Source: Gemmatimonadota bacterium (GTDB lineage Bacteria; Gemmatimonadota; Gemmatimonadetes; Longimicrobiales; Gaopeijiaceae). From it: a stretch of DNA of 64,000 bases. The stretch spans positions 124,001 through 188,000 of the forward strand of contig JAJDYN010000023.1 of the NCBI GenBank assembly GCA_022825135.1. The letters run 5' to 3'. Positions 22,777 through 37,224 of this stretch are shown one piece after another. Position 1 is the stretch's first letter. The number at the start of each line of letters is the position of its first letter. Made by a program: the position numbers and the translations under genes. The notes beneath the pieces were generated by a model. It had not been told where the DNA came from, did no database searches, and was given only the letters and a program-made list of their open reading frames with translations.

Positions 22777-25700
22777 TTACCGCCGCCAGGCGTCGGCAGA
22801 CGGAATGCCCCGGCTGAAGAGCGTTTCAAGTCCCGGCCCGACACGGCGCCCTGCGGCATCCGCAGCGGTCTGGGTCGTGGGAGCCGGATCCCGCACGAAC
22901 CCGCGTATCCGACCGGTCCGGGGATCGCGCAGGATCGCCATCGGAAGATCCGTGTTCTCATCCAGCGTAGCCGAGCCACCGGGCCCGGACAGGGTGATGC
23001 TTGCCAGGTTGCCGCTCCATCCGGGCTCCACCGGCAACGCGAAGACGAAGCTGGTCTCCTCGCCCTCGGCGTCTGCCATGGCCGGCATGCCGAAGGTGAA
23101 CGAGAAGATGGGCGTCCCGTCAGAGGTCACGCCCTCGACGGCATAGTCCCCTCCGGCGACCGGGAGAGAGGGCACGGCGTCAACGACGAAGGCGGGATCC
23201 AGGTACGGAACGCCATCCTCATCCCGTCCGCCCCACAACAGAAGCGTGCGCACGGGATCCGTCTCCGTGGCCATTGCCGCCGCCGCGGCACCGCCCTCGG
23301 CAAGACGGTGGCTAAGCGCCTTGTTGAAGAAAAAGTCGCTGATCCAGCGTGGCGGCGTACAGTAGCCCATCAGGTCCGGCGTGTGTGGCGACACCAACGC
23401 GTTGCGTTCTGAATCGTACCCCCAAGCTCCGATGCTTCCGCCCGCATGCGGGAACCAGGGATCGAGGAGTGCCGGGCTGCCACACGGTGCGTGTCGGAGC
23501 GAAAGATTGTGTCCCAACTCGTGAGCGATAATGTGAGCGATCGGCTTCGAGAAGCTACTCCACCCGCCGAGATGGGCTGTGCCTCCCAACCAACCCCTGG
23601 CGTCTCCTACGCCCATCCAGTGTCCCGAGCCGCCTTCCATGACGCGCATCGCCTCAACCTGCCCGAGTATTTCTCGGGCCAATCCGGTCGACACGATGAC
23701 GGGCTCGCGCGACGCCACTTCGATTTCCGCGACCGGCAGCAGGGTCCGCACATGGCGGAGCAACTCGTGACCGTCGGGATCCTCCGCCATATCGGAGACG
23801 GACTGCACCACGGACGAGTCCGGGTGGGTTTCCGAGATAATCGGGATCAGAGTCAGCTGGAAGGGCGCCACCCGCCGCACGTCAACGGACATTCGGCCCA
23901 CAGCGGGGATCCGCTTCGTCACGCCGAGCGCCGGATCCAGGGTCCGCTCCGGGTCGACCTCGATCACCATTTCCAGGCCGGGGACGATGACCCAGTCGGG
24001 GATCTCGACGTTGGCAGACAACTCGAGAGCGCCTTCAACGATGTCGGGGCTAACGGTCTGCGTGCTGGCAGGGATTTGCACGGCGTGCCGTTCTGCACCG
24101 CGAACGTAGAAGGTGGCTTTGACCTCGGGCATCGTTACAGTGGCGGACTGCGGCGCCGTGACAAAGATCCGAAGCAGTGCCTCCTCTCCGGCCAACAGCG
24201 GCACCGGATCGCCCCACGACTGTACGGTCTGCGTAAGGTATACGTTCGGTCCCTCCCGGCAACGCGCCAGGTAGCCATCGGCTATGGCGCCGAACCATTC
24301 GTCAAAGCTGGCGTCCGCCGGGCGGCACAATCCGGTGCCACCGGCCATCAGCAGTTCGAGGCGGACGAGCCCCGTGATGTCCTCGGACAGCGGTCCAGCC
24401 AATTCCGGGTTGTCCGCGAGGATCAGCGATTTCAGCAGATTGAGATCGCCGAATCCCGGCGGCACTGGACCGGATAGCGCGTTGTCCCGCAGGTCGAGGT
24501 CCTCAAGCTTGGCGGCATGCCCGAGTTCCGCGGGCAGCGGTCCCGACAACTCGTTTTCGCTCAGGTCCAGTGTGGCAAGATTCGGGAGGTCACCCAGCTC
24601 TGCCGGGATCGGGCCGGAGAGTTTGTTGTTGGCCAGGTCCAGCACTCTGAGCCCGGGCAAGGCGCCCAGCCTCGCCGGGATCGAACCCGAGAGATCGTTG
24701 TCGGAGAAGTGGAGTTCGAGGAGGTTGGTCAGGCCGCTCAACTCTGCCGGGATCGGACCGGCCAGCTGATTGCCCGAGAGATCCAGCACGGATACGCGGC
24801 CCAGTGTGCCCAGTTCCGGCGGAATGCGTCCGGTCAAATGGTTGTTGGCGAGGTCGATGGACTCGACCGCGCTGAGTTCGGCAAGTTCCGAGGGAATGCT
24901 GCCGCTGAACTGATTCCATGAGAGGTTGAGGGACGCCAGACCGCTCAAGCGGCCCAGTTCCGACAGCACCGGGCCCGACAGCAAGTTGCCCCCGAGATTC
25001 AGCCGGCTCAGCTTGGCAAGCTTGGCGAGCTCTTGCGGGACCTCGCCTGAAAGGCGGTTGAGAGCAAGATCCAGCCGCTCCAGACGGGTCAGGTCGGCCA
25101 GCTCTGTCGGGATCGAACCCGACAGGCCGTTGTTGCCAAGGTCCAGTACCCTCAGTTCCGCGAGCTGACCAAGCTCAGGAGGGATGTCGCCAGTCAGCCG
25201 ATTCGACCGCAGAGAAAGTGATTCCAGATGGTCCAGGTCAGCCAGGCCAGACGGGATCGAGCCCGACAGGTCATTATTGAGAAGATTCAGGACCTTGAGT
25301 CGGGACAACTCCCGCAGCTCCGCCGGAATCGAGCCGGACAGGAGGTTTGACCCAAGCCTCAGTTCGACGATACGTCCGGCCGCATCGGTAACCACGCCAT
25401 CCCACTCCCCCAAGGGAGCTCCGCTCAGCCAACCTGTCGACCGCCGCCACTGGCGCCCCCCGGCATTCCTGTACAACGATTCGAGTACCTCCCGTTCGGT
25501 GAGCGGAGGACACTGCATTCCGTTCCCGTCATGGCGCGGTATTCCGTTCAGCCATGCCACGAATCCGGCGTCGTCCGCCGCACACAGAGACGTGTTGGCA
25601 TAATCGAACTCGTCCAGGGCCAGGCCGGTGAGCGACAGAGGCAACCGACCGGTCAGCGCATTGTCCCGGATCCGCAGCTCCCTCAGATTGACAAGCCGCT

Positions 25701-27666
25701 CCAGCGCCCCGGGTACATGCCCCGATAACCCGTTTTCGCTCAGGTCGAGTGCGGAAACCCGCCCGATCGAATCGGTCCGCACCCCGTGCCAACGGTCCAG
25801 ATTCTCGTCTTCCAGCCAGCCGTCGGACCGAGTCCAGCTCCCACCGTTCGTAGCCTCGTACAAGTCCTGCAACGCCTGTTTGTCGATCTCGTCGCAGAAC
25901 GGGGCAGTGACCAAACCCTGGATCAAGTCGACCTGGCGGATCCACTCCCTGAACTCGTCCGTAGCCGGCACACACACACCCAAGGTGCCGGCGCATTCCA
26001 CGATCTGCAGACTGGGCAGCCTCGCGAAACTCAGCGGCAGAGAACCGGTCAGCCGGTTGCCTTCCAGGTTAATGGCTCTCAAACTCCCGAGGTTTCCGAG
26101 CTCGGTAGGGACCAGACCAATCAGGTCGTTTCCGGCGAGTTGGAGTATCTCAAGCTTGGCAAGGTTCCCCAGTTCCGGCGGAATCGACCCCGCAAGGTTG
26201 TTTCCCTGCACCTCCAGCCACCGCAGCTCGTCGAGGTTCCCCAGTTCCGGCGGGATTCGTCCCGTAAGGTTGTTGCGGCCGATCAAGAGCATCCCCAGAT
26301 TCGTAAGACTTCCCAGTTCCGGTGGAATCGGCCCGGTGAAGTCGTTGCCTCTGAGCACCAGCCTTGTGAGGCCTGTGAAGTCCGCCAGCCACGGTGGAAT
26401 CGGTCCCGTCAGGCCGTTGCTATCCAGGTCAAAGCTCTGCAGGCGCACGAGGCTGGCCAGCTGCGACGGCATCTGACCCTCCAACTCGTTCTTGTCCAGC
26501 CGGAAGACCCTCAACTCGGTGAGGTTGCCCAGTTCCGGCGGAATCGCGCCCGTGAGCGCATTGTCTCTCAGGTCAAGCACCTGCAGGTCCACGAGACGAC
26601 CGAGTTCCGGCGGGATAACACCGGTCAGCCGGTTGTCGCCGAGGGCAAGGCGCCTCAGGTTCACAAGATTCCCCAACTCCGGCGGAATGGTGCCGGTCAG
26701 ACTGTTTATGGAGAGGTCCAGTTCCTCAAGCCTCGCGAGGTTACCGAGCTCCGGCGGGATGTAACCTTGCAGCCCCCCACCGATTTGTTCTGATCCTTCC
26801 CACCAGCCGCTCAAATCAAGTTCGACTACCCGCCCCGAAGCGTCGGTGTCGACTCCATACCACTCCCCCAGCGGCGCATCGGTCAGCCAGTTGGTGTTGT
26901 CGACCCAGTTCGGACCGTCGGTGGCTTCGTAGAGGACTGCCAGCGCCGCCCGGTCGGTATTCTCCACCGTGGTGATCTCGGCAGCGCCGGAGTAGTCCCC
27001 CCCCGCCGCCGTGATCGTCGCCGTCCCTTGGTCCACTCCGGTCACCAGCCCTGAATCGTCCACGCGGGCCACCAGCGTGTCGCTCGACGACCAGGAGAAC
27101 TCCAAGCCTGCGACCGCATGACCGTTCGCGTCGGTCGCCTCCGCCACCAGCCGCACCGTGTCTCCGAACGCCACCAACGTGTCCGCCGCGGGTGACACGG
27201 CGACGGCAGTCGCTACCTGGGCCACGGTCACCGCCGCGGCACCGGAGGCCGAGCCCGCCGCAGCCGTGATCCTTGCACTACCGTTCGCCGCCGCCGTCAC
27301 CAGCCCGGAGGCGTCCACCGACGCGACTGACGCGTCACTCGTCGTCCACGCCACGGTGGCCCCGGTCATCACCTGTCCGTTCTGGTCGCGCACCTCGGCG
27401 GTCAACCGGGCCGTTTCTCCAAGGGCGGTGAGCGCGGCCGAGCCCGGATTGACCGTTACGGCCATGGCCACCAGAGTCGGAGCAGCCGGCGGCTCCACGG
27501 CACCATCACCGCACGACAGGGCAAGCATGGCGGTCCCGATCACAGCGATTGCCTGGACCGGAAAGTCCGCGTTCGGCCGTCCAGGTCCCGCGCCAGCGGG
27601 CCTCCGGTGAGCGCCTCCCTGCCGCAGCCATGCGCGGCCATCGGTCAGGAGATTTTTCGTTTGCAT
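22777..27666 (-). CDS. Giant exported Ig-LRR-metzincin fusion protein
   Basis: 1629 residues. Lipoprotein-type signal (MLALSC, Cys52), then two bacterial Ig-like group 2 (BIG2) modules (~65-230). Three blocks of plant-type leucine-rich repeats follow (~235-1120), with repeat core L..L.L..N.LTG.IPPELG.L; each block starts with an LRR cap such as ALAVLYEATDGPNW, ALQDLYEATNGGSW or VLESLYRNAGGRQW. The C-terminal ~450 residues carry a metzincin-type zinc site HELGHNLSLRH (H1382, E1383, H1386, H1392) and a Met-turn DLMGYC (M1433). Position 8 of the motif is Ser rather than Gly. The likely role is a surface protease with an LRR recognition arm. ATG 27666 has an AGGAG-type element upstream. Confidence 0.92.
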   Translation of the reverse strand: MQTKNLLTDGRAWLRQGGAHRRPAGAGPGRPNADFPVQAIAVIGTAMLALSCGDGAVEPPAAPTLVAMAVTVNPGSAALTALGETARLTAEVRDQNGQVMTGATVAWTTSDASVASVDASGLVTAAANGSARITAAAGSASGAAAVTVAQVATAVAVSPAADTLVAFGDTVRLVAEATDANGHAVAGLEFSWSSSDTLVARVDDSGLVTGVDQGTATITAAGGDYSGAAEITTVENTDRAALAVLYEATDGPNWVDNTNWLTDAPLGEWYGVDTDASGRVVELDLSGWWEGSEQIGGGLQGYIPPELGNLARLEELDLSINSLTGTIPPELGNLVNLRRLALGDNRLTGVIPPELGRLVDLQVLDLRDNALTGAIPPELGNLTELRVFRLDKNELEGQMPSQLASLVRLQSFDLDSNGLTGPIPPWLADFTGLTRLVLRGNDFTGPIPPELGSLTNLGMLLIGRNNLTGRIPPELGNLDELRWLEVQGNNLAGSIPPELGNLAKLEILQLAGNDLIGLVPTELGNLGSLRAINLEGNRLTGSLPLSFARLPSLQIVECAGTLGVCVPATDEFREWIRQVDLIQGLVTAPFCDEIDKQALQDLYEATNGGSWTRSDGWLEDENLDRWHGVRTDSIGRVSALDLSENGLSGHVPGALERLVNLRELRIRDNALTGRLPLSLTGLALDEFDYANTSLCAADDAGFVAWLNGIPRHDGNGMQCPPLTEREVLESLYRNAGGRQWRRSTGWLSGAPLGEWDGVVTDAAGRIVELRLGSNLLSGSIPAELRELSRLKVLNLLNNDLSGSIPSGLADLDHLESLSLRSNRLTGDIPPELGQLAELRVLDLGNNGLSGSIPTELADLTRLERLDLALNRLSGEVPQELAKLAKLSRLNLGGNLLSGPVLSELGRLSGLASLNLSWNQFSGSIPSELAELSAVESIDLANNHLTGRIPPELGTLGRVSVLDLSGNQLAGPIPAELSGLTNLLELHFSDNDLSGSIPARLGALPGLRVLDLANNKLSGPIPAELGDLPNLATLDLSENELSGPLPAELGHAAKLEDLDLRDNALSGPVPPGFGDLNLLKSLILADNPELAGPLSEDITGLVRLELLMAGGTGLCRPADASFDEWFGAIADGYLARCREGPNVYLTQTVQSWGDPVPLLAGEEALLRIFVTAPQSATVTMPEVKATFYVRGAERHAVQIPASTQTVSPDIVEGALELSANVEIPDWVIVPGLEMVIEVDPERTLDPALGVTKRIPAVGRMSVDVRRVAPFQLTLIPIISETHPDSSVVQSVSDMAEDPDGHELLRHVRTLLPVAEIEVASREPVIVSTGLAREILGQVEAMRVMEGGSGHWMGVGDARGWLGGTAHLGGWSSFSKPIAHIIAHELGHNLSLRHAPCGSPALLDPWFPHAGGSIGAWGYDSERNALVSPHTPDLMGYCTPPRWISDFFFNKALSHRLAEGGAAAAAMATETDPVRTLLLWGGRDEDGVPYLDPAFVVDAVPSLPVAGGDYAVEGVTSDGTPIFSFTFGMPAMADAEGEETSFVFALPVEPGWSGNLASITLSGPGGSATLDENTDLPMAILRDPRTGRIRGFVRDPAPTTQTAADAAGRRVGPGLETLFSRGIPSADAWRR

Positions 27667-28122: not shown

Positions 28123-28857
28123 CTACGTCAGTCTTCGCGCGATCCACACCGTACGGAAGACGGCGGTGGCCACCGTCCCCACCGCGGTCACCACCAGCAC
28201 GGCCAGCAGGACCGTGCCCGGGTCGCGCCCCAGGAGCGCGGAGCCGGTGCCGTCCAGGATCGCGCCGAACCCGATCAGCAGGAGCCGCTCCGCGCGCTGC
28301 ATGACACCCGCCGTGCACAGGACGCCCTGGCTCTCCCCGCGCGCGCGTGTGTAGCTGACCAGTAGCGAGCCTCCGAGCGCCGCGGCCACCACCGCCAGGG
28401 CGGCGCCGGAGTCCCGAAAGGCCACCGCCAGACCCACGAAGGCGGCCACCTCGGCGAACCGGTCGATGGTCGAGTCCAGGAACGCCCCCCGCGGCCCGGC
28501 AAGGCCTCGCGCCCGCGCCACCCGTCCATCCATGGCATCCGCGACGCCGCTGAGCAGGACCGCCCAGCCTCCCATCGCGAACCGCCCCGAGGCGAAGAAC
28601 CACCCCGCCGCCGCGCCGAAGGCGAACCCCAGCAGGTTGTAGAAGAGGGGCGAAAGTCCGAGAAGCAGGGACGCCCGCTCCACCGGCCACACGAACCAGT
28701 AGAACCAGCGGCGCACGAAGGAGCCGAGCACGAACTTTCCCCGGGTGGACGACTCGAGCGCGTCCACCGCGCGGCTGGCGGCGCTCAGCGCGAAGACCGG
28801 CATGGTGGCGAGCGCGAACCCCACCACCACGACCAGCGCCGTGAGCTCAGGCCTCAT
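28123..28857 (-). CDS. CDP-alcohol phosphatidyltransferase
   Basis: 244 residues, integral membrane. The family signature D-G-x2-A-R-x8-G-x3-D-x3-D is complete: D110, G111, A114, R115, G124, D128, D132, with the extra D107 upstream. Six or so hydrophobic helices surround it, and the YTRARGE motif follows, as in phosphatidylinositol/phosphatidylglycerol-type synthases. It transfers a phosphatidyl group from CDP-diacylglycerol to an alcohol acceptor; acceptor not determinable. The start codon overlaps the stop of the upstream Tam41-like gene (ATGA), which itself overlaps plsC by ATGA, so all three are translationally coupled in a phospholipid operon. The longer open frame to 29910 is antisense-like. 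Confidence 0.92.
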   Translation of the reverse strand: MRPELTALVVVVGFALATMPVFALSAASRAVDALESSTRGKFVLGSFVRRWFYWFVWPVERASLLLGLSPLFYNLLGFAFGAAAGWFFASGRFAMGGWAVLLSGVADAMDGRVARARGLAGPRGAFLDSTIDRFAEVAAFVGLAVAFRDSGAALAVVAAALGGSLLVSYTRARGESQGVLCTAGVMQRAERLLLIGFGAILDGTGSALLGRDPGTVLLAVLVVTAVGTVATAVFRTVWIARRLT

Positions 28858-29873
28858 GGTGTCCGGGCTTCCCGCGCCCGGGCCGCCTGCCGCCCCCGAC
28901 CGTCCCGCGATTCCCGGTTCTCCCGCGACTCCCGGTTCTCCCGCGACTCTGCGCGCCCGGACCGCAACACACGAAACGCCTTGGGAAGGAGCAGCGGGAA
29001 GGGGAAACGCCGCTCCAGGGGCGTGATCTCCACCGTCATCCCCGTGCGCCGCTCCACCTTGCGCACGATGTAGGGGAACCAGCGGTCGAACGTAAGCATG
29101 TGCTTGACCCAGCGGGTGGTGGCGCGCGCCTTGCTGATGCCGAAGTACGCGTTCAGCCTGAGCTGGGCCGCGGCCGACGCGGGACGAGCCGCGCGGTACT
29201 TCCCGTTCGATCGCTCGAGCACGCCGGATGCCACCCCGGCCTCCAGGATGGGCGTGTAGATGCCTCGCAGCGTCTCCCGCTGGGCCTCGTAGACGGCGCT
29301 CACGCGGCCTCCGCGTTCCGGCCGGATCTCTCCGGCGTACGAAATCTCGAGCATGCGCCGGCAGAAGTCGTCCACGGAGAACGAGCCCTCCAGGAACGGA
29401 AGGGTCCAATCGAGCACCATCCGCCTGGCGCCGGCGACCAGTTCGTCGACCCATGCGGCCGTTTCCGGGTCGCGCGCATGCACGACCGAGATGTGATGCG
29501 CGATGCGGCCCAGGCAGAAGTGGTCGAGGCGGCGCGGCCCCAGTTCCCGCTCGAAGTCGGCGCGCGAAAGCACGAGGCACTTGGCCAGCGGCCCATCGGG
29601 CGGCGCGGGCCAGAAGGCGATGACGGTCGGAGCCAGCACGCGGCTGACGGTCGCCAGCAACCCCGCCTTGCGCGCGGTGTACCCGCCGTCGGAGAGGGCG
29701 CGGTAGAACGCCGGGTAGTCCTCGACCACGACGACCAGGTCGTAGGCGCTGTGCCGGTCCGGGCTTGCCGACACAAGCCGCGAGCCGTACGCCAGCACGG
29801 CGAGCAGGCCGTCGCCGCCCGTCTCCCGCAGCCGCGAGATCAGGTGCCCGATGGGTGCTTCCACCCCCGTCAT
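28854..29873 (-). CDS. Tam41/Mmp37-like nucleotidyltransferase, possible CDP-diacylglycerol synthase
   Basis: 339 residues, soluble. Near the N-terminus is a nucleotidyltransferase-type GS motif (AYGSR, G30-S31), then YDLVVVVEDYPAFY with D45 and the pair E51/D52. The middle has AFWPAPPDG and LVLSRADFERELGPRRLDHF and a helical body follows. This layout matches Tam41 (Mmp37), the peripheral CDP-DAG synthase of mitochondria, which also has bacterial homologues. The operon gives strong support: it sits between an acyltransferase making phosphatidic acid and a transferase consuming CDP-DAG, exactly the missing step. Assignment is by motif and context only; a generic nucleotidyltransferase is the alternative. 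The C-terminus ends in a short degenerate repeat (ESRENRESRENRESRD). Confidence 0.68.
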   Translation of the reverse strand: MTGVEAPIGHLISRLRETGGDGLLAVLAYGSRLVSASPDRHSAYDLVVVVEDYPAFYRALSDGGYTARKAGLLATVSRVLAPTVIAFWPAPPDGPLAKCLVLSRADFERELGPRRLDHFCLGRIAHHISVVHARDPETAAWVDELVAGARRMVLDWTLPFLEGSFSVDDFCRRMLEISYAGEIRPERGGRVSAVYEAQRETLRGIYTPILEAGVASGVLERSNGKYRAARPASAAAQLRLNAYFGISKARATTRWVKHMLTFDRWFPYIVRKVERRTGMTVEITPLERRFPFPLLLPKAFRVLRSGRAESRENRESRENRESRDGRGRQAARAREARTP

Positions 29874-30694
29874 GCGGGCTCCGCTGCCGTGGGGACGCCC
29901 CGCATCTCATCGAGCATTCCGGTCATGACGCCCCGCATCTCCATGATGAAGCCATCCAGATCGGCATCCGCCGCCGGCGACTCGAACGGGCCCCGGCACT
30001 CGACTCGGGTGCGCATCAGCGGTAGGTTTCCGAAGAAGTCCTTGAGTCGCGTCCACTTCCACAGTCCGTCCGCCACCACGACGTACACGCTCCAGCGGCG
30101 TGCCGCCAGAATGGTCGCCAGCCCCAGCGTCTTGAAGGGGCCGATGCGGCCCGTCCTGCTCCGGGTTCCCTCGGGGTAGATGACGAAGGGGTGCGTGGAG
30201 GCGGCCGCTTCCCTGCGGAGCTGCTTCAGCTCACCGCGCAGGGTTGCTCTCGCATCTACGAGGGGGTATCGGTACAGCCTTGTCATGTGGGATATTAGGG
30301 GTACGCCGCGGGCGTACCGCCGGCGCGTCACGATGCGGGGGTACACGCCTTGCATCGACGCGACGACGAGGGGGATGTCGAGCAGCGACTGGTGGTTCAT
30401 GAGCACCAGCACGCCGGGGGTCGCCGGGATGTCCGGCAACTCGCCGAAACGGACTCCGCCCATATGGCGAAGGAAGAAGATGACCACGTGGGCCGTGAAG
30501 CGCTGCCACTCGGTGAGCAGGGCGTCGCGGTTCCCCGGCAGCAGCCGCGCCATGGGCGCGATCAGGAGGCGCTGAATCAGATCGCAGGCCAGCAGCGCCG
30601 CGCCGAGCGCGGTGAGAGTCAAGGCGCCGCGGAGGTCCAATGACGTGTCCTGAATGGCGGGTGTGGTCCGATCGGAAGAACATCGGGCAAACAT
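29870..30694 (-). CDS. plsC: Lysophosphatidic acid acyltransferase (PlsC family)
   Basis: 274 residues. N-terminal hydrophobic segment (LTLTALGAALLACDLIQ), then acyltransferase block I NHQSLLD (N100, H101, D106, the NHx4D catalytic motif), block II around RRYARGVPL, and block III VIYPEGTRSR with the FPEGTR-type substrate motif. It acylates 1-acyl-glycerol-3-phosphate to phosphatidic acid at the inner membrane. It is first of three ATGA-linked genes leading to phospholipid head-group transfer. The ATG at 30694 directly abuts the divergent aminotransferase ATG at 30695, leaving no promoter space, so the real start may be downstream (TTG 30640 or ATG 30553); loss of the N-terminal helix argues against 30553. 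Confidence 0.88.
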   Translation of the reverse strand: MFARCSSDRTTPAIQDTSLDLRGALTLTALGAALLACDLIQRLLIAPMARLLPGNRDALLTEWQRFTAHVVIFFLRHMGGVRFGELPDIPATPGVLVLMNHQSLLDIPLVVASMQGVYPRIVTRRRYARGVPLISHMTRLYRYPLVDARATLRGELKQLRREAAASTHPFVIYPEGTRSRTGRIGPFKTLGLATILAARRWSVYVVVADGLWKWTRLKDFFGNLPLMRTRVECRGPFESPAADADLDGFIMEMRGVMTGMLDEMRGVPTAAEPA

Positions 30695-32104
30695 ATGAGT
30701 GACATTCGAAACGCTAGCAGGAAATCCGCTTCGGCGTCAACGCGACGGGTGGCCCGCGACGGGACCCGGGATTCCTTCGGTGCCGGGACGGAAGGAAGGA
30801 CGGCCGTCGCCGCGAGCCGGGCCGAGCCGGGGGATGAGCGGCCGCCGCTTCGCGGACTGAGCGACTACGACTACACCAACTTCTACTTCGCGGCGGGCAC
30901 GGATCCGTTCGGGATCCTGGAGCCGTTCGGCGAATGGTGGAAGGACGCCGAGTTCGACGGTGGCTACTACCTCTACGGGCTGCCGATGGGCTCCGCGCCC
31001 GCGACGCGTGTCGAGATCGGCGATCCCAAGACGAGCGAGACACGCGAGGGACTGATCAACTTCGCGTCCTACAACTACCTGGGCCTTTCCTATCGTCCCG
31101 AAGTGATCGAGGCGGTCTGCGACGCGGTTCGCAAGTACGGTGCCGGAGCCTCGGGGTCGCCGGTGCTCTCGGGCACCATGGACCTGTACAAGCGGCTGGC
31201 GACGGAGATGGCGGACTTCAAGGGCAAGGAAGGCGCCCTCATCTTCCCGACGGGATACAGCGCCAACGTGGGGCTCATCTCGGGGCTGATGCGTCCCGGC
31301 GACCTGATCGTGGCCGACAAGCTGGCCCACGCCAGCATCGTCGACGGCATGATCCTCTCCAAGGCGACCTCACGCTTCTTCAAGCACAACAACCCGGAGG
31401 ATCTCGACCGCAAGCTCGGCGGATTCAGCGGCAAGAAGCTGGTGATCGTCGAGGGCGTCTACTCGATGGACGGGGATGTGGCCAGGTTGCCGGAGATCGT
31501 CGACGTCTGCAAGCAGCACGGTGCGCGCCTGCTCATCGACGAGGCGCATTCCACTTTCGTCTACGGCCCGAACGGTCGGGGCGTCGCGGAGCATTTCGGG
31601 CTCGACGACGAGGTCGACATCCACCTCGGCACCTTCTCGAAGAGCCTCGGGGGCCTGGGCGGGTTCGTCGCCGGCCCGGCCGAACTCATCTACTACCTGC
31701 GCGGCTTCGCGCGCTCCCGGGTGTTCTCGTGCGCGCTTCCGCCCCCGGTCACGGCCGGCCTGCTGAAGGCGCTGGAGATCGCGAGGGCCGAGCCGGAACT
31801 GCGCGAAAAGCTCTGGGACAACGCCCGCTACATGCACGGGCTGCTGGGAGAGGCCGGCGTGGACGTGGGCGATTCCACCTCGCAGGTGATCTCGATCATG
31901 ATCCGCGACGATGCCGGCATCTTCCAGATCGCCGAGGACCTTCTGCACCAGGGGGTCTACATCAACCCGGTCCGCTTCCCCGCCGTGGGCAAGCACAAGT
32001 CACGCTTCCGCATGTCCATCTCGGCGGCGCACACCCGGTCCGAACTCGAGGAGGGCGCCGAAATCATCATCTCCATCCTCCAGAAATACGGAAAATGCCC
32101 CTGA
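30695..32104 (+). CDS. PLP-dependent alpha-oxoamine synthase, serine palmitoyltransferase-like
   Basis: 469 residues. Class II fold-type I aminotransferase of the BioF/KBL/SPT group: FASYNYLGLS, GAGASGSPVLSGT, ADKLAHASIVDG (stacking H212), IDEAHSTFVYG (D282, H285) and the Schiff-base Lys316 in GTFSKSLGGLGG. The N-terminal extension containing YDYTNFYFAAGTDPFG is longer than in BioF or KBL and resembles serine-palmitoyltransferase-type enzymes that load an acyl chain onto Ser. The product would be a 3-keto long-chain base. A 10-base overlap with the acetoacetate-decarboxylase-family gene and the following lipid kinase support a lipid role. Biotin or threonine pathways are less likely because no other bio or tdh genes are near. 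Confidence 0.85.
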   Translation: MSDIRNASRKSASASTRRVARDGTRDSFGAGTEGRTAVAASRAEPGDERPPLRGLSDYDYTNFYFAAGTDPFGILEPFGEWWKDAEFDGGYYLYGLPMGSAPATRVEIGDPKTSETREGLINFASYNYLGLSYRPEVIEAVCDAVRKYGAGASGSPVLSGTMDLYKRLATEMADFKGKEGALIFPTGYSANVGLISGLMRPGDLIVADKLAHASIVDGMILSKATSRFFKHNNPEDLDRKLGGFSGKKLVIVEGVYSMDGDVARLPEIVDVCKQHGARLLIDEAHSTFVYGPNGRGVAEHFGLDDEVDIHLGTFSKSLGGLGGFVAGPAELIYYLRGFARSRVFSCALPPPVTAGLLKALEIARAEPELREKLWDNARYMHGLLGEAGVDVGDSTSQVISIMIRDDAGIFQIAEDLLHQGVYINPVRFPAVGKHKSRFRMSISAAHTRSELEEGAEIIISILQKYGKCP

Positions 32105-32757
32105 CCCGGTATCACTATTCCCAGGCCGTCAGCGCCTTTTTCGAGATCGCCACGTCGGATGCCCGCCGCATCCTTCCTCCGCACCTGCAGCCGCTCGAAG
32201 TGCAGCACGAGGCCAGCATCCTCGCCGTCACGGCCTTCGATTTCACCGGCAGCATGGTCGGCACCTATCAGGAGATCGTGCTCTCGGTGATCGTGCCGCC
32301 GCTGATCGCCCCGAGCCAGGGGATGGCGAAATCGGCATTCTATCCCTTCCTTGTAGGGACGAGCACGGAGGCGTCGCGCGAGCACGCCATCGAGCGCTGG
32401 CACCTGCCGCACTACATGAAGGACCTCGACATCCGCTTCCTGCCTTCGGACGGGCGCATGCGGGTGGAGGTGCGAGAAGGCGACCAGCCGATCCTGGACT
32501 TCGAGATCGCCGACCACCACTCGGATGCGGTCGATCATCTGTACCAGTCGTTCATGGTCAACGGTGAAGACCGCTTCAAGGTGGACATCCACATGCAGGG
32601 GCCGCACAGCGAGCACGAGGAGGAGGCCGGGTCGCTGAAGCTGTACGAGCACCCCATGACCTCCCAGCTGACGCTGGACCAGGTGGCCACCTCCCCGTTT
32701 CGCGAGCAGTGGATGAGAGACGGCGTCCAGGTATTCGAGGAGCTGGAGCGCATCTGA
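32095..32757 (+). CDS. Acetoacetate decarboxylase-family protein
   Basis: 220 residues. The overall plan is that of the acetoacetate decarboxylase-like superfamily: an N-terminal ILPPHLQPLEVQHEASILAVTAFDF segment typical of the fold, a central beta-cone stretch, and a C-terminal strand pattern. The catalytic Lys of true decarboxylases sits in a region that cannot be aligned by eye here, so enzymatic activity is uncertain. It overlaps the SPT-like gene by 10 bases and is itself overlapped by the lipid kinase, so it likely works on the same pathway, perhaps on a beta-keto acyl or keto-base intermediate. The longer frame starting at 30934 is a shadow of the aminotransferase. Confidence 0.72.
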   Translation: MPLTRYHYSQAVSAFFEIATSDARRILPPHLQPLEVQHEASILAVTAFDFTGSMVGTYQEIVLSVIVPPLIAPSQGMAKSAFYPFLVGTSTEASREHAIERWHLPHYMKDLDIRFLPSDGRMRVEVREGDQPILDFEIADHHSDAVDHLYQSFMVNGEDRFKVDIHMQGPHSEHEEEAGSLKLYEHPMTSQLTLDQVATSPFREQWMRDGVQVFEELERI

Positions 32758-33716
32758 GCGTCGGAGCGCGCACCTTCGTCATCTTCAACCCGGCCTCGGG
32801 GCACGGCCGGGGGGCGCGCCGCATCCCGCTCTACCGGGAACTCCTCGACAGGCATCTCGATTTCTGGGAGTCGGCGGCGACCACAGCGCCCGGCGAGGAA
32901 GCCGAACTCGCGGACCGGGCCATCTCCGGGGGCGCGAAGCTGGTGGTGGCGGTCGGCGGCGACGGGACCTGGAGCCAGGTGGCGGATCGGGTGGTGGCAT
33001 CCGGGCGCGCGGATGTCGCGCTGGGACTGCTGGCCTCGGGAACCGGCAACGACTTCGGCAAGAGCCTCGGGCTCAGCTACGGCGACCCGGAGCAGGCGGT
33101 GGCGGCATTGGCGGCGGGCCGGACGCGGCTCATCGATGTGGGGCGGGTGGTGTCGGATTGGCGGCCCGCGCCCTACCCGGAGGTGGAATCCGGAGCCGCA
33201 TGGCGCAATTCCCCGCGCCACTTCCTGAACCTGGTGGGTTTCGGCTTCGACATCGCCGTCATAGATGCGAGCCTGCGGGCACGCTTCCTGCGGGGGGCGG
33301 TGCTGTACAAGCTCACGGCGCTGCAGCAGTTGTTCCTGTACCGGAGTTCGCGGCTCCGGCTGACGGACGGCGGTGGATGGAGCACCGAAGGACGGCACCT
33401 CATCCTCACCATCTCGAACGGACGCATCTTCGGGGGCGGGTTCCCGATCGCCCCGGGCGCGGATCTGCAGGATGGGCGTCTGGACGCGTGCGCGATCGCC
33501 GATTCCTCGCCCCTGGGACGGGCGCGCCTGTTCGGCCTGGCGGAGAAGGGTCGCCATGTGCGCGCGAAGGAAGTCTCCATGCGCCAGGATGCCAACTTTG
33601 CCGTGCAGTTCGACGAGCGTGTACGTTACGAGGTCGACGGCGACGTGCATCAGTCGCGCACGGGCGAGGTTCGGGTGGACGTCGTTCCGTCGGCGCTCCC
33701 GGTGATCGTTCCGTGA
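32709..33716 (+). CDS. Diacylglycerol kinase / sphingoid-base kinase-type lipid kinase
   Basis: Catalytic domain of the DAGK/LCB5/YegS family: [13 protein letters not shown], the nucleotide-binding [10 protein letters not shown] (GGDGT) and [17 protein letters not shown] (GTGND), then the beta-rich C-terminal domain with [17 protein letters not shown] and LDACAIAD. It phosphorylates a lipid hydroxyl using ATP. The listed start is GTG 32709 (335 residues), which overlaps the previous gene by 49 bases and has no Shine-Dalgarno. CTG 32754, which overlaps the previous stop as CTGA and has GAGGAG about ten bases upstream, would place the start right before the kinase fold and may be the true one. 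In the SPT-like context the substrate could be a long-chain base or ceramide. Confidence 0.88.
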
Positions 33717-33726
33717 AGGAGGCTGG

Positions 33727-36700
33727 ATGGATCGCCTTGCTGCCGCCCCGCCGCGCACCGCTCAGCCCATCCGCATAGTCACGGCGGCGTCGCTCTTCGA
33801 CGGGCACGACGCCGCCATCAACGTGATGCGCCGAATCCTCCAGGATTCGGGCGCGGAAGTCATCCACCTGGGTCACAATCGGTCCGCCCTCGAGATCGTG
33901 GAGTGCGCGATCCAGGAAGACGCGCACGCCGTCGCGATCAGCTCGTACCAGGGCGGGCACATGGAGTTCTTCACATACGTGCGCGACCTGCTGCGCGAGC
34001 GGGGCGCGGACATCCGCATCTTCGGCGGCGGCGGCGGGACCATTCTGCCCGCGGAAGCCGAAGAGCTGCACCAGCGCGGCATCGACCGGGTCTTCTCGCC
34101 CGACGACGGGCGGGCGATGGGGCTTCAGGGGATGATCGACGAGGTGCTCGAGGGTGCACGTCGCTCGGTCCGGTCGTCGCTCGCGGATGCGGAGGGGGAG
34201 GTGCGCGCGCTCCGTCAGGGGGACGCGGGCGCGGTGGCACGCCTGATCTCGGCGGTCGAGAACGGCCATGCGGGGGCGGACGAAGCGATGGAGATGGTGG
34301 CCGAGATGGCGACCGCCCGGCGGGTGCCGGTGCTCGGCGTCACGGGCACGGGCGGCTCGGGCAAGTCGTCGCTGGTGGACGAGCTGGTGCGGCGCTATCT
34401 GTCCGGGACCGCCGATGGCAGGGTCGCAATCATCTCGGTGGATCCGTCGAAGCGGCGCACGGGGGGCGCGCTGCTGGGCGACCGCATCCGGGTGAACGCG
34501 GCCTCGAGCCCGCGCGTCTACATGCGCTCGCTGGCCACCCGCGCGTCGACGCTCGGCCTGTCGCCGCACGCTCGCCAGGCGGTGGACATCTGCAAGGCCG
34601 CCGGCTTCGACCTCATCATCATCGAGACGCCCGGGATCGGTCAGTTCGGCGCCGAGGTGGTGGGACACTCGGATGTGTCGCTGTACGTGATGACCGCCGA
34701 GTACGGCGCCGCCAGCCAGCTCGAGAAGATCGACATGCTGGACTACGCGGCCGTGGTCGCCATCAACAAGTTCGACCGCCCGGGCGCGCTCGATGCGCTC
34801 CGCGACGTGCGCAAGCAGTACCGGCGCAACCACCGCCTGTGGAGCGTGCCCGACACGGCGCTCCCCGTGTACGGCACGGTCGCCTCGCGTTTCAACGACG
34901 CCGGCGTGAACCGCCTGTACCTGGCGCTCCTCGACCAGTTGCGGCGCAAGACCGGCGCTTCGCTCGCAACCGAGCGCGACCCCGTCGACGACGACCGGGC
35001 CGAGCACACGCCGATTCCGCCCGAACGCACCCGCTATCTGGCGGAAATCGTGGAGGCGGGCCGCAACTACGGCCAGCGCGTGGACGAACAGGCCGCGCTG
35101 GCCCGCCAGCTGTATCAACTGGACGGGGCGATCCGGCTGCTGCGGGGCGAAGTGGGCGCGGGAGACTCGTCCGGGACCGAAATGGCCGTCGCTGCGGCTG
35201 CGAGCGCGCTCGTTGGCGGCAGCGATGAACCGGACGAGATCGCACCCGAGCTGCCCCCGGCAGCCGGTGAGGACGAACCCCTCGCCCGCCTGATCGACCT
35301 CTACCGGCAGACCCGCGCGCGCCTCGACCGACGCAGCCTGGCCCTGCTCGGGGAATGGCCGGCGGTGAAGCGCCGCTACCAGGCCGACACCTACGCCTAC
35401 CAGGTTCGTGGCCGCGAGGTGGAGCGGAGCCTCTTCAGCGAATCGCTCGCCGGCTCGCGCATCCCGCGGGTGGTGCTGCCCCGCTTCCGCGACTGGGGAG
35501 AGGTGCTGCGCTGGCGGCTCACCGAGAACGTGCCGGGGGCGTTTCCCTACACCGCCGCGGTTTTCCCCCTGCGGCGGCTGGAGGAGCACCCGCAGCGCAT
35601 GTTCGCGGGCGAGGGCGGCCCCGAGCGCACCAACCGGCGCTTCCACTTCCTCAGCCGCGCCAGTCTGGCCAACCGGCTCTCCACCGCCTTCGACTCGGTG
35701 ACGCTCTACGGCGAGGACCCGGACGAGCGCATGGACATCTACGGCAAGGTCGGGAACTCCGGCGTGAGCGTGGCTTCGGTGGACGACGCCAAGAAGCTCT
35801 ACTCCGGCTTCAACCTCGCGGACCCCTCCACCAGCGTATCGATGACCATCAACGGGCCCGCGCCCATGTTGCTCGGCTTCTTCCTCAACGCGGCCATCGA
35901 CCAGCAGTGCGAGCTCCACATCCGCGAAAGCGGGCGCGAAGCCGAGGTGGAGGAGCGCATCGACGCGCTCTATCGCGAGCGCGGAATGGAACGGCCCCGC
36001 TACCAGGGCGCGCTTCCGGAGGGGAACGACGGCCTCGGCCTGATGCTGCTCGGCGTGAGCGGCGACGAAGTACTCCCGGGCGACGTCTACGAGCGCATCC
36101 GTCGCGAGACCCTCGCCGTGGTCCGCGGCACCGTCCAGGCCGACATCCTCAAGGAAGACCAGGCCCAGAACACCTGCATCTTCTCCATCGAGCTGGCGCT
36201 CCGGCTGATGGGCGACATCCAGCAGTACTTCATCGACGAAGGGGTGCGGAACTTCTACTCGGTGTCCATCTCCGGATACCACATCGCGGAAGCCGGCGCC
36301 AACCCCGTCACCCAGCTCGCGCTCACCCTCGCCAACGGCTTCACCTACGTCGAGTACTACCGCTCGCGCGGGATGCGCGTCGACGACTTCGCGCCCAACC
36401 TGTCGTTCTTCTTCTCCAACGGCATGGACCCGGAATACGTGGTTCTGGGGCGGGTTGCGCGCCGCATCTGGGCGAAGGCGATGAAGCACGTCTACGGCGC
36501 AAACGGCCGCTCGCAACGGCTCAAGTATCACATTCAGACCTCGGGGCGCAGCCTGCACGCGCAGGAGATCGCCTTCAACGACATCCGCACCACGCTGCAG
36601 GCCCTCTACGCCCTCTGCGACAACTGCAACTCGCTGCACACCAACGCCTACGACGAAGCCATCACCACGCCCACCGAGGAGAGCGTGCGACGGGCCCTCG

Positions 36701-37224
36701 CGATTCAGCTTGTCATCAGCAGGGAACTGGGGCTGTCCAGGAACGAGAACCCGCTGCAGGGCTCGTTCATCATCGAGGAGCTGACCAACCTGGTGGAGGA
36801 GGCGGTGATGCGAGAGTTCCTGCGGCTGTCGGAGCGCGGAGGCGTGCTCGGGGCGATGGAGCGCATGTACCAGCGCGGCCGCATCCAGGACGAGTCGCTC
36901 GAATACGAGTCGCGCAAGCACAGCGGCGAGCTGCCCATCGTGGGGGTTAACACCTTCCTGGGGCCGGAGGGATCGCCCACGCGGGTTCCCGACGAGGTCA
37001 TCCGCGCCAACCCCGAAGAGAAGGACTACGCCATCGCGTCAAACCGGGCCTTCAGGGCGCGCAACCGGGGCCGCGCCGACGCCGCGCTCGACGAGTTGAG
37101 GCGCGTCGCGCTGGCGGGGGGCAACACCTTCGCCGCGCTCATGGAGGCGTGCAAGGTGTGCACGCTGGGCCAGATCACGGGGGTGCTGTACGAGGTGGGC
37201 GGGCAGTACCGGCGGAACATGTAG
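33727..37224 (+). CDS. icmF: Fused isobutyryl-CoA mutase-type B12 enzyme with built-in G-protein chaperone
   Basis: 1165 residues, the usual IcmF length. Order: B12-binding domain (about 15-145) with [12 protein letters not shown] (adenosylcobalamin-coordinating H27), SSYQGGH and the GGGGG turn. A MeaB-like GTPase domain (about 198-480) follows with P-loop [12 protein letters not shown] (205-215), then ETPGIGQF and NKFD. The mutase catalytic TIM barrel (about 560-1165) comes last. It interconverts isobutyryl- and butyryl-CoA or related branched acyl-CoAs by radical rearrangement; exact substrate not readable. The ATG 33727 has GGAGG seven bases before it. It starts ten bases after the lipid kinase stop, so it may be co-transcribed with that cluster. 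Confidence 0.95.

Follow-up and report, generated by a model that had tools for sequence, protein, structure and literature searches.

A Tam41-fold nucleotidyltransferase in a conserved lipid operon of Gemmatimonadota is a candidate ceramide-1-phosphate cytidylyltransferase

We analysed a stretch of 64,000 nucleotides (the window) from a Gemmatimonadota genome of 3.54 Mb, and found that a gene on its minus strand encodes what is very probably a lipid-phosphate cytidylyltransferase of the Tam41 fold. The gene belongs to a conserved operon that lies next to sphingolipid-type genes. We think it rather likely that the enzyme acts on ceramide-1-phosphate, forming CDP-ceramide for the transferase encoded beside it, which resembles phosphatidylinositol-phosphate (PIP) synthases. 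The genes concerned are the following (window positions).

28123..28857, minus strand: CDP-alcohol phosphatidyltransferase of the phosphatidylinositol-phosphate-synthase type, 244 aa (Pfam CDP-OH_P_transf, E 1e-9)
28854..29873, minus strand: Tam41-fold (CpgC-like) nucleotidyltransferase, 339 aa, the proposed ceramide-1-phosphate cytidylyltransferase
29870..30694, minus strand: PlsC-like acyltransferase (Pfam Acyltransferase, E 8e-13) with HX4D and EGTR motifs
30695..32104, plus strand: serine palmitoyltransferase (SPT)-like alpha-oxoamine synthase, divergently oriented; best PDB match 3A2B
32095..32757, plus strand: acetoacetate-decarboxylase (ADC)-like protein (ADC, E 1e-4, below the cut-off), named also from synteny
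32709..33716, plus strand: YegS/DAGK-family lipid kinase, a candidate ceramide kinase (TIGR00147 above the cut-off; Pfam DAGK_cat, E 4e-25)

A preliminary description of this DNA, which gave no strand, had placed the Tam41-like gene between genes for a PlsC-like protein and a CDP-alcohol transferase, all three linked by ATGA overlaps. The open reading frame and the Pfam matches of its neighbours confirm this arrangement, on the minus strand, and a 4-base overlap can be read from the sequence at both junctions. The same -4 overlap was seen again at most junctions of the Gemmatimonadota loci examined. Since homologues of the Tam41-like gene occur in 49 of 298 Gemmatimonadota genomes (many of them metagenome bins), the pairing with the transferase is constant, the overlap recurs, and the nucleotidyltransferase signature is found in 60 of 60 copies, the set of PlsC-like, Tam41-like and transferase genes is a conserved operon and not a chance assembly. 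Relatives at 86-97% identity come from Gemmatimonadetes/BD2-11 metagenome bins, some of which are labelled Gammaproteobacteria. The annotated starts of the PlsC-like and SPT-like genes abut (window 30690-30700), leaving no space for a promoter; the true start of one or both is probably internal.

The AlphaFold2 model of the window protein (pLDDT 90.6, pTM 0.85) has a bacterial Tam41, 7ECD, as its top Foldseek match in the PDB (E 2.5e-9, TM 0.70 on the target, rmsd 4.7), followed by yeast Tam41 chains (E 2.6e-7 for 6IG4, 1.1e-6 for 6IG2, up to 3.9e-6). Apart from Tam41 entries, the PDB search gave no match at E<1e-3, the first other folds being aminoglycoside nucleotidyltransferases (E 1.4e-3, rmsd >13), and a search of BFVD with the same model gave no match below 1e-3. 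At the level of sequence the assignment to the Tam41/Mmp37 family held only in part: the Pfam profile Tam41_Mmp37 (PF09139) did match the window protein (E 6e-4), but at 19.6 bits, under its cut-off of 24 bits, and 9 of 44 family members matched it at E<=0.1, the best at 4.6e-6. Because the cut-off is missed, we do not accept formal membership of PF09139, though we accept the fold and the reaction class.

An alignment of 44 Gemmatimonadota homologues contains 26 invariant residues, including G30, S31, D45, K98, R123, E182, R184, E186 and R190. Two motifs contain seven of the residues named.

29739..29789, minus strand: nucleotidyltransferase signature Y29-G30-S31 ... D45, invariant in Gemmatimonadota and proteobacterial copies
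29304..29330, minus strand: motif E182-x-R184-P-E186-x3-R190, which aligns with DIR...E...RK of S. pombe Tam41

The first is the N-terminal nucleotidyltransferase layout (YGS, 13 residues, then D), and it is present throughout the 60 family copies. D45 is followed by L-V, so that there is no acid at D+2, as described for Tam41, which retains one of the three usual nucleotidyltransferase acids (PMC11646218). The profile built from the 44 homologues found S. pombe Tam41 as its best PDB match, at E 0.03; when proteobacterial relatives (see below) were added, the same protein was the top match at E 1.4e-4, with YGS, D, K, R and the [DE]xR...E motif in register. A profile from six proteobacterial proteins alone gave no PDB match.

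The window protein has no transmembrane helix (peak 19-residue hydropathy 1.52) and a basic C-terminus (20 K/R versus 10 D/E in residues 265-339), and is thus predicted to be peripheral or soluble. It is like S. pombe Tam41 (6IG2/6IG4) in its predicted fold, in YGS...D with a single classic acid, in [DE]xR...E, and in its soluble character and basic C-terminus, but differs in sequence, with about 17% identity and a score below the Pfam cut-off. The Tam41 from Firmicutes (7ECD), although the best structural match, shares 13% identity in the structural alignment, and its reported product is CDP-DAG. Bacterial Tam41 with CDP-DAG activity is credited to Kimura et al. 2022, as cited in PMC11646218; a bacterial CDP-DAG synthase of this type is therefore already known, and the general idea is not new. 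What sets the window gene apart from Tam41/TAMM41 (Mmp37), the mitochondrial CDP-DAG synthase, is its place in a sphingolipid-type cluster with a CDP-alcohol transferase of its own.

The suggestion that the gene provides an alternative to CdsA was not borne out. The same genome has an intact canonical cdsA (PF01148, E 4e-53) in an frr-uppS-cdsA-dxr cluster, and its product carries the full CDS signature (KDTGSMLPGHGGMLDRLD). That signature (KDx5PGHGGx2DRxD, in the CTP_transf_1 domain) is present in the genome's CdsA and absent from the Tam41-like protein. Elsewhere the genome encodes PgsA-like and PssA-like proteins (named from their sequences) and a second PlsC, more canonical than the operon copy (116 versus 51 bits). 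CdsA and the window protein share a reaction class, CTP plus a lipid phosphate, but CdsA is an integral-membrane CDP-DAG synthase and an unrelated protein, which the genome has retained. The operon cluster is a second, dedicated set beside the housekeeping genes.

We compared the occurrence of the Tam41-like gene with that of its neighbours. At all loci examined, contig ends excepted, the CDP-alcohol transferase gene follows it, and in 48 of 49 genomes orthologues of this transferase (at least 198 bits; the next group scores at most 134) and the Tam41-like gene occur together. The two exceptions to the pairing (G211 and G228) have a contig that ends at the gene. Such strict pairing despite cdsA (checked in the window's genome and assumed in other carriers from its essential role) is the chief argument from the genomes for a separate CDP-lipid serving the pair: with cdsA as a housekeeping gene, a strict partner that needs a cytidylyltransferase to itself suggests a product other than CDP-DAG.

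The SPT-like gene shows the second strong association. Counted at E<=1e-100, it is present in 46 of 49 carriers and in 11 of 249 non-carriers (46 concordant, 3 + 11 discordant; Fisher p 1e-39, a value that ignores shared ancestry); within the genus g2, it is present in 5/5 carriers versus 1/11 non-carriers (p=0.0014). Three carriers (G075, G264 and G127) lack a high-scoring SPT, and these, together with the 11 SPT carriers that have no Tam41-like gene, weigh against the sphingolipid reading. Re-searching the 11 SPT-only genomes with a profile gave short generic nucleotidyltransferase matches and no Tam41-like gene; in one of them, G211, the gene for the partner transferase lies where a contig ends. 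Loci with sufficiently long flanks mostly show lipid kinase, ADC-like and (SPT) in this order, divergent from PlsC, Tam41-like, transferase. Where SPT is missing at the locus, nearly all such genomes have a full-length orthologue (613-666 bits) elsewhere, accompanied by its own ADC-like neighbour. That the Tam41-like gene tracks the SPT-like gene and the PIP-synthase-like transferase makes phosphatidic acid improbable as the substrate, or at least as the sole one, and a sphingolipid phosphate appears to us the likelier acceptor. The ranking of PDB matches for the SPT-like protein itself places Sphingobacterium SPT (3A2B, 291 bits) above the best non-SPT entry (AONS/KBL, 246 bits); among NCBIfam models, however, those for bioF and SPT do not differ in score, and it falls under the curated cut-off for every subfamily.

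Relatives outside Gemmatimonadota were found on plasmids. In tblastn searches, a first round returned Roseomonas only (28.6% identity, E 4e-9), and a second round, started from Roseomonas, returned Diaphorobacter, Qipengyuania and Pseudomonas; a DNA-level search for the operon in plasmids gave no match. All are annotated only as "hypothetical protein". The Gemmatimonadota proteins align over their full length with six of these proteobacterial proteins (hhalign E 1e-38 over 289 columns), and 16 invariant residues are common to both groups. Two further candidates, from a scan of genome contigs of Cyanobacteria (L042) and Bifidobacterium (L043), were set aside as short matches (query residues 279-337 and 305-325, respectively).

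In Roseomonas the order is metallophosphoesterase, CDP-OH transferase, DAGK-type kinase, Tam41-like protein; the opposite strand then encodes a PLP enzyme of the SPT type and ACP, and LptF/LptG and NTP transferase genes are near the locus. This mirrors the Caulobacter genes CC_1158-CC_1163: CC_1158 encodes a phosphoesterase, CC_1159 CpgA (CDP-OH), CC_1160 CpgB (ceramide kinase), CC_1161 CpgC and CC_1162 spt; CC_1163 is likewise counted with the ceramide genes, and close by are genes for LptF2/G2 and a CofC-like protein. The Tam41-like protein thus stands at the cpgC position. In Pseudomonas and Qipengyuania the kinase gene is directly upstream of the Tam41-like gene; Diaphorobacter has two CDP-OH transferases, one of them directly upstream. 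A lipid kinase, SPT and CDP-alcohol transferase, the CpgC-like neighbourhood, are found in both Gemmatimonadota and Roseomonas. CpgC (CC_1161/CCNA_01219) is required after ceramide kinase for the synthesis of ceramide phosphoglycerate (CPG), a step from ceramide-1-phosphate described, as of May 2026, as proceeding "via an unidentified mechanism" (PMC13228409); one group has speculated about an NDP-ceramide, owing to a CDP-DAG-synthase domain. The link of the window protein to CpgC is positional and runs through Roseomonas, and the PIP-synthase-like character of the partner transferase in Gemmatimonadota makes a different head group probable there. The CDP-alcohol transferase CpgA, which a simple CDP-ceramide scheme would need, is dispensable for CpgC-dependent CPG; this counts against our proposal unless Caulobacter has a further transferase, and the chemistry of CpgC may also be different.

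These comparisons bear on one alternative, that the window protein is strictly a Tam41 of bacteria, making CDP-DAG from PlsC-derived phosphatidic acid as a dedicated pool for a second phosphatidylinositol-phosphate synthase; this is the idea of the preliminary description, less the replacement of CdsA. Proteins of this fold are known to make CDP-DAG in yeast and in one member of the Firmicutes, the partner is of the PIPS type, and the PlsC-like gene is translationally coupled; the presence of that gene, which fits phosphatidic acid as substrate, counts against our own proposal. We nevertheless regard this alternative as unlikely, given the cdsA, pgsA, pssA and second plsC of the same genome, the canonical PIP synthase of related genomes, which works without a Tam41-like partner, the strong tie to SPT, and the homology to proteins at the cpgC position of sphingolipid clusters. 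Moreover, no PlsC was detected near the pair at five loci (L027, L047, L049, L051 and L062).

We analysed the partner transferase for its likely head group. In the PDB it is most similar to the PIP synthases of Renibacterium and Mycobacterium. The catalytic motif DxxDGxxAR...GxxxDxxxD is found in 57 of 57 copies. On an alignment to MtPgsA1, with positions counted by hand, the inositol-phosphate residues R94, S132, Y133, R137, R152, R155 and R195 are kept, and K135, replaced by R, is the only listed one that changed. The NCBIfam scores lie below the cut-offs both for archaetidylinositol-phosphate synthase (124.9 of 180 bits) and for PIP synthase (94.8 of 170). MIPS is encoded in 38 of 39 genomes, so its presence alone is uninformative as a marker, and it gains value through the position of canonical PIP synthases. 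In non-carriers such as G058, and in some carriers such as G197, a canonical PIP synthase lies about 1 kb from MIPS; no PIP synthase was found near MIPS in 15 of the 16 carrier MIPS loci fetched, including that of the window's genome. As carrier MIPS loci mostly lack a nearby PIP synthase, the use of inositol-phosphate may have passed to the window transferase, and judging from these residues and loci we would expect inositol-phosphate as the head group rather than another. The Bacteroides inositol-sphingolipid pathway (BT_1522-BT_1526) likewise belongs to an organism that has MIPS, SPT and an enzyme of the PIP-synthase type, but forms phosphoinositol-dihydroceramide via the AUR1-like BT_1522, and its cluster is described without a Tam41-fold protein.

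The Tam41-like protein might instead activate the head group, for example by forming CDP-inositol from CTP and inositol-phosphate, to be joined to a lipid alcohol such as ceramide. CDP-alcohol routes do exist, as in IPCT, CpgD and the Prevotella cluster (PMC9246714). However, CpgD resembles sugar-type cytidylyltransferases such as IPCT, unlike the window protein, whose Tam41 fold and basic C-terminus are of the lipid-phosphate enzyme type; the transferase resembles enzymes that use a CDP-lipid and inositol-phosphate, and the linked lipid kinase would be superfluous. We consider this route improbable. Least probable is an unrelated nucleotidyltransferase (of the aminoglycoside/streptomycin adenylyltransferase or small MNT type) placed by chance among lipid genes: some family members do have weak Pfam matches to Polbeta and Adenyl_transf, and ANT enzymes are the next fold matches, but these fall far behind Tam41 in both E value and rmsd, and the gene is strictly coupled to the CDP-alcohol transferase in 49 genomes.

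Our preferred reading, a cytidylyltransferase acting on ceramide-1-phosphate, draws on gene structure, predicted fold, conserved motifs, synteny and co-occurrence. The linked SPT would start the sphingoid backbone, and the YegS-type kinase would make ceramide-1-phosphate. The Tam41-fold enzyme would bind CTP-Mg in its nucleotidyltransferase pocket and convert ceramide-1-phosphate and CTP to CDP-ceramide and pyrophosphate, CTP being the presumed donor by analogy with the family, and ceramide-1-phosphate the acceptor suggested by gene context and CpgC genetics. The coupled PIP-synthase-type transferase would then pass the lipid phosphate to a polar alcohol, probably inositol-1-phosphate, with release of CMP, and the PlsC-like protein may carry out some acylation. 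In its widest form the proposal is that CpgC and its Gemmatimonadota relatives are a branch of the Tam41 fold making CDP-ceramide, in a CDP-lipid route parallel to that of CDP-DAG, with inositol-phosphate ceramide as the Gemmatimonadota product; for this our expectation is evenly balanced. A text search of 5.39 million papers did not find the term CDP-ceramide, nor a paper joining Tam41 with ceramide-1-phosphate, cytidylyltransferase and bacterial sphingolipid. A Tam41 fold at the cpgC position gives the CpgC step a definite, assayable chemistry (CTP + ceramide-1-phosphate to CDP-ceramide) and widens the range of the pathway to include Gemmatimonadota and alpha-, beta- and gammaproteobacterial plasmids. 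If the proposal is true, bacteria have a broader family of soluble lipid-phosphate cytidylyltransferases, and Tam41 represents a single branch of it.

Large parts of cpg-like loci lie on IncP plasmids, in Diaphorobacter (pDCB2, L169) and Pseudomonas (pPNP1, L168), so phosphosphingolipid synthesis may be horizontally mobile. One IncP plasmid with a cpg-like locus also has mercury resistance genes.

Nearly all SPT loci have the ADC-like gene directly after SPT, and where SPT lies elsewhere a further copy adjoins the lipid kinase gene (paired copies in L094-L112); its product appears to be a component of the Gemmatimonadota sphingoid pathway that has escaped recognition. In loci with SPT, ADC-like and kinase genes that are without the Tam41-like pair (L114-L119), different genes occupy the site of the pair: in the genus g55 (L114, L115 and L116) these encode a DegT aminotransferase and nucleotide-sugar functions, in L117 a fatty-acid hydroxylase and in L118 an acyltransferase. 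These differing replacements suggest different sphingolipid head groups. The lipid operon of the window adjoins a gene for a 1629-aa leucine-rich-repeat protein (window 22777-27666), in whose translation Ig-like N-terminal repeats and, near the C-terminus, a metalloprotease-like motif of the HEIAHELGHN type can be seen by eye. The lipid kinase gene is followed by a co-oriented gene for a fused methylmalonyl-CoA-mutase-type protein (window 33727-37224), which by eye is IcmF-like, with B12-binding, G-protein chaperone and mutase parts.
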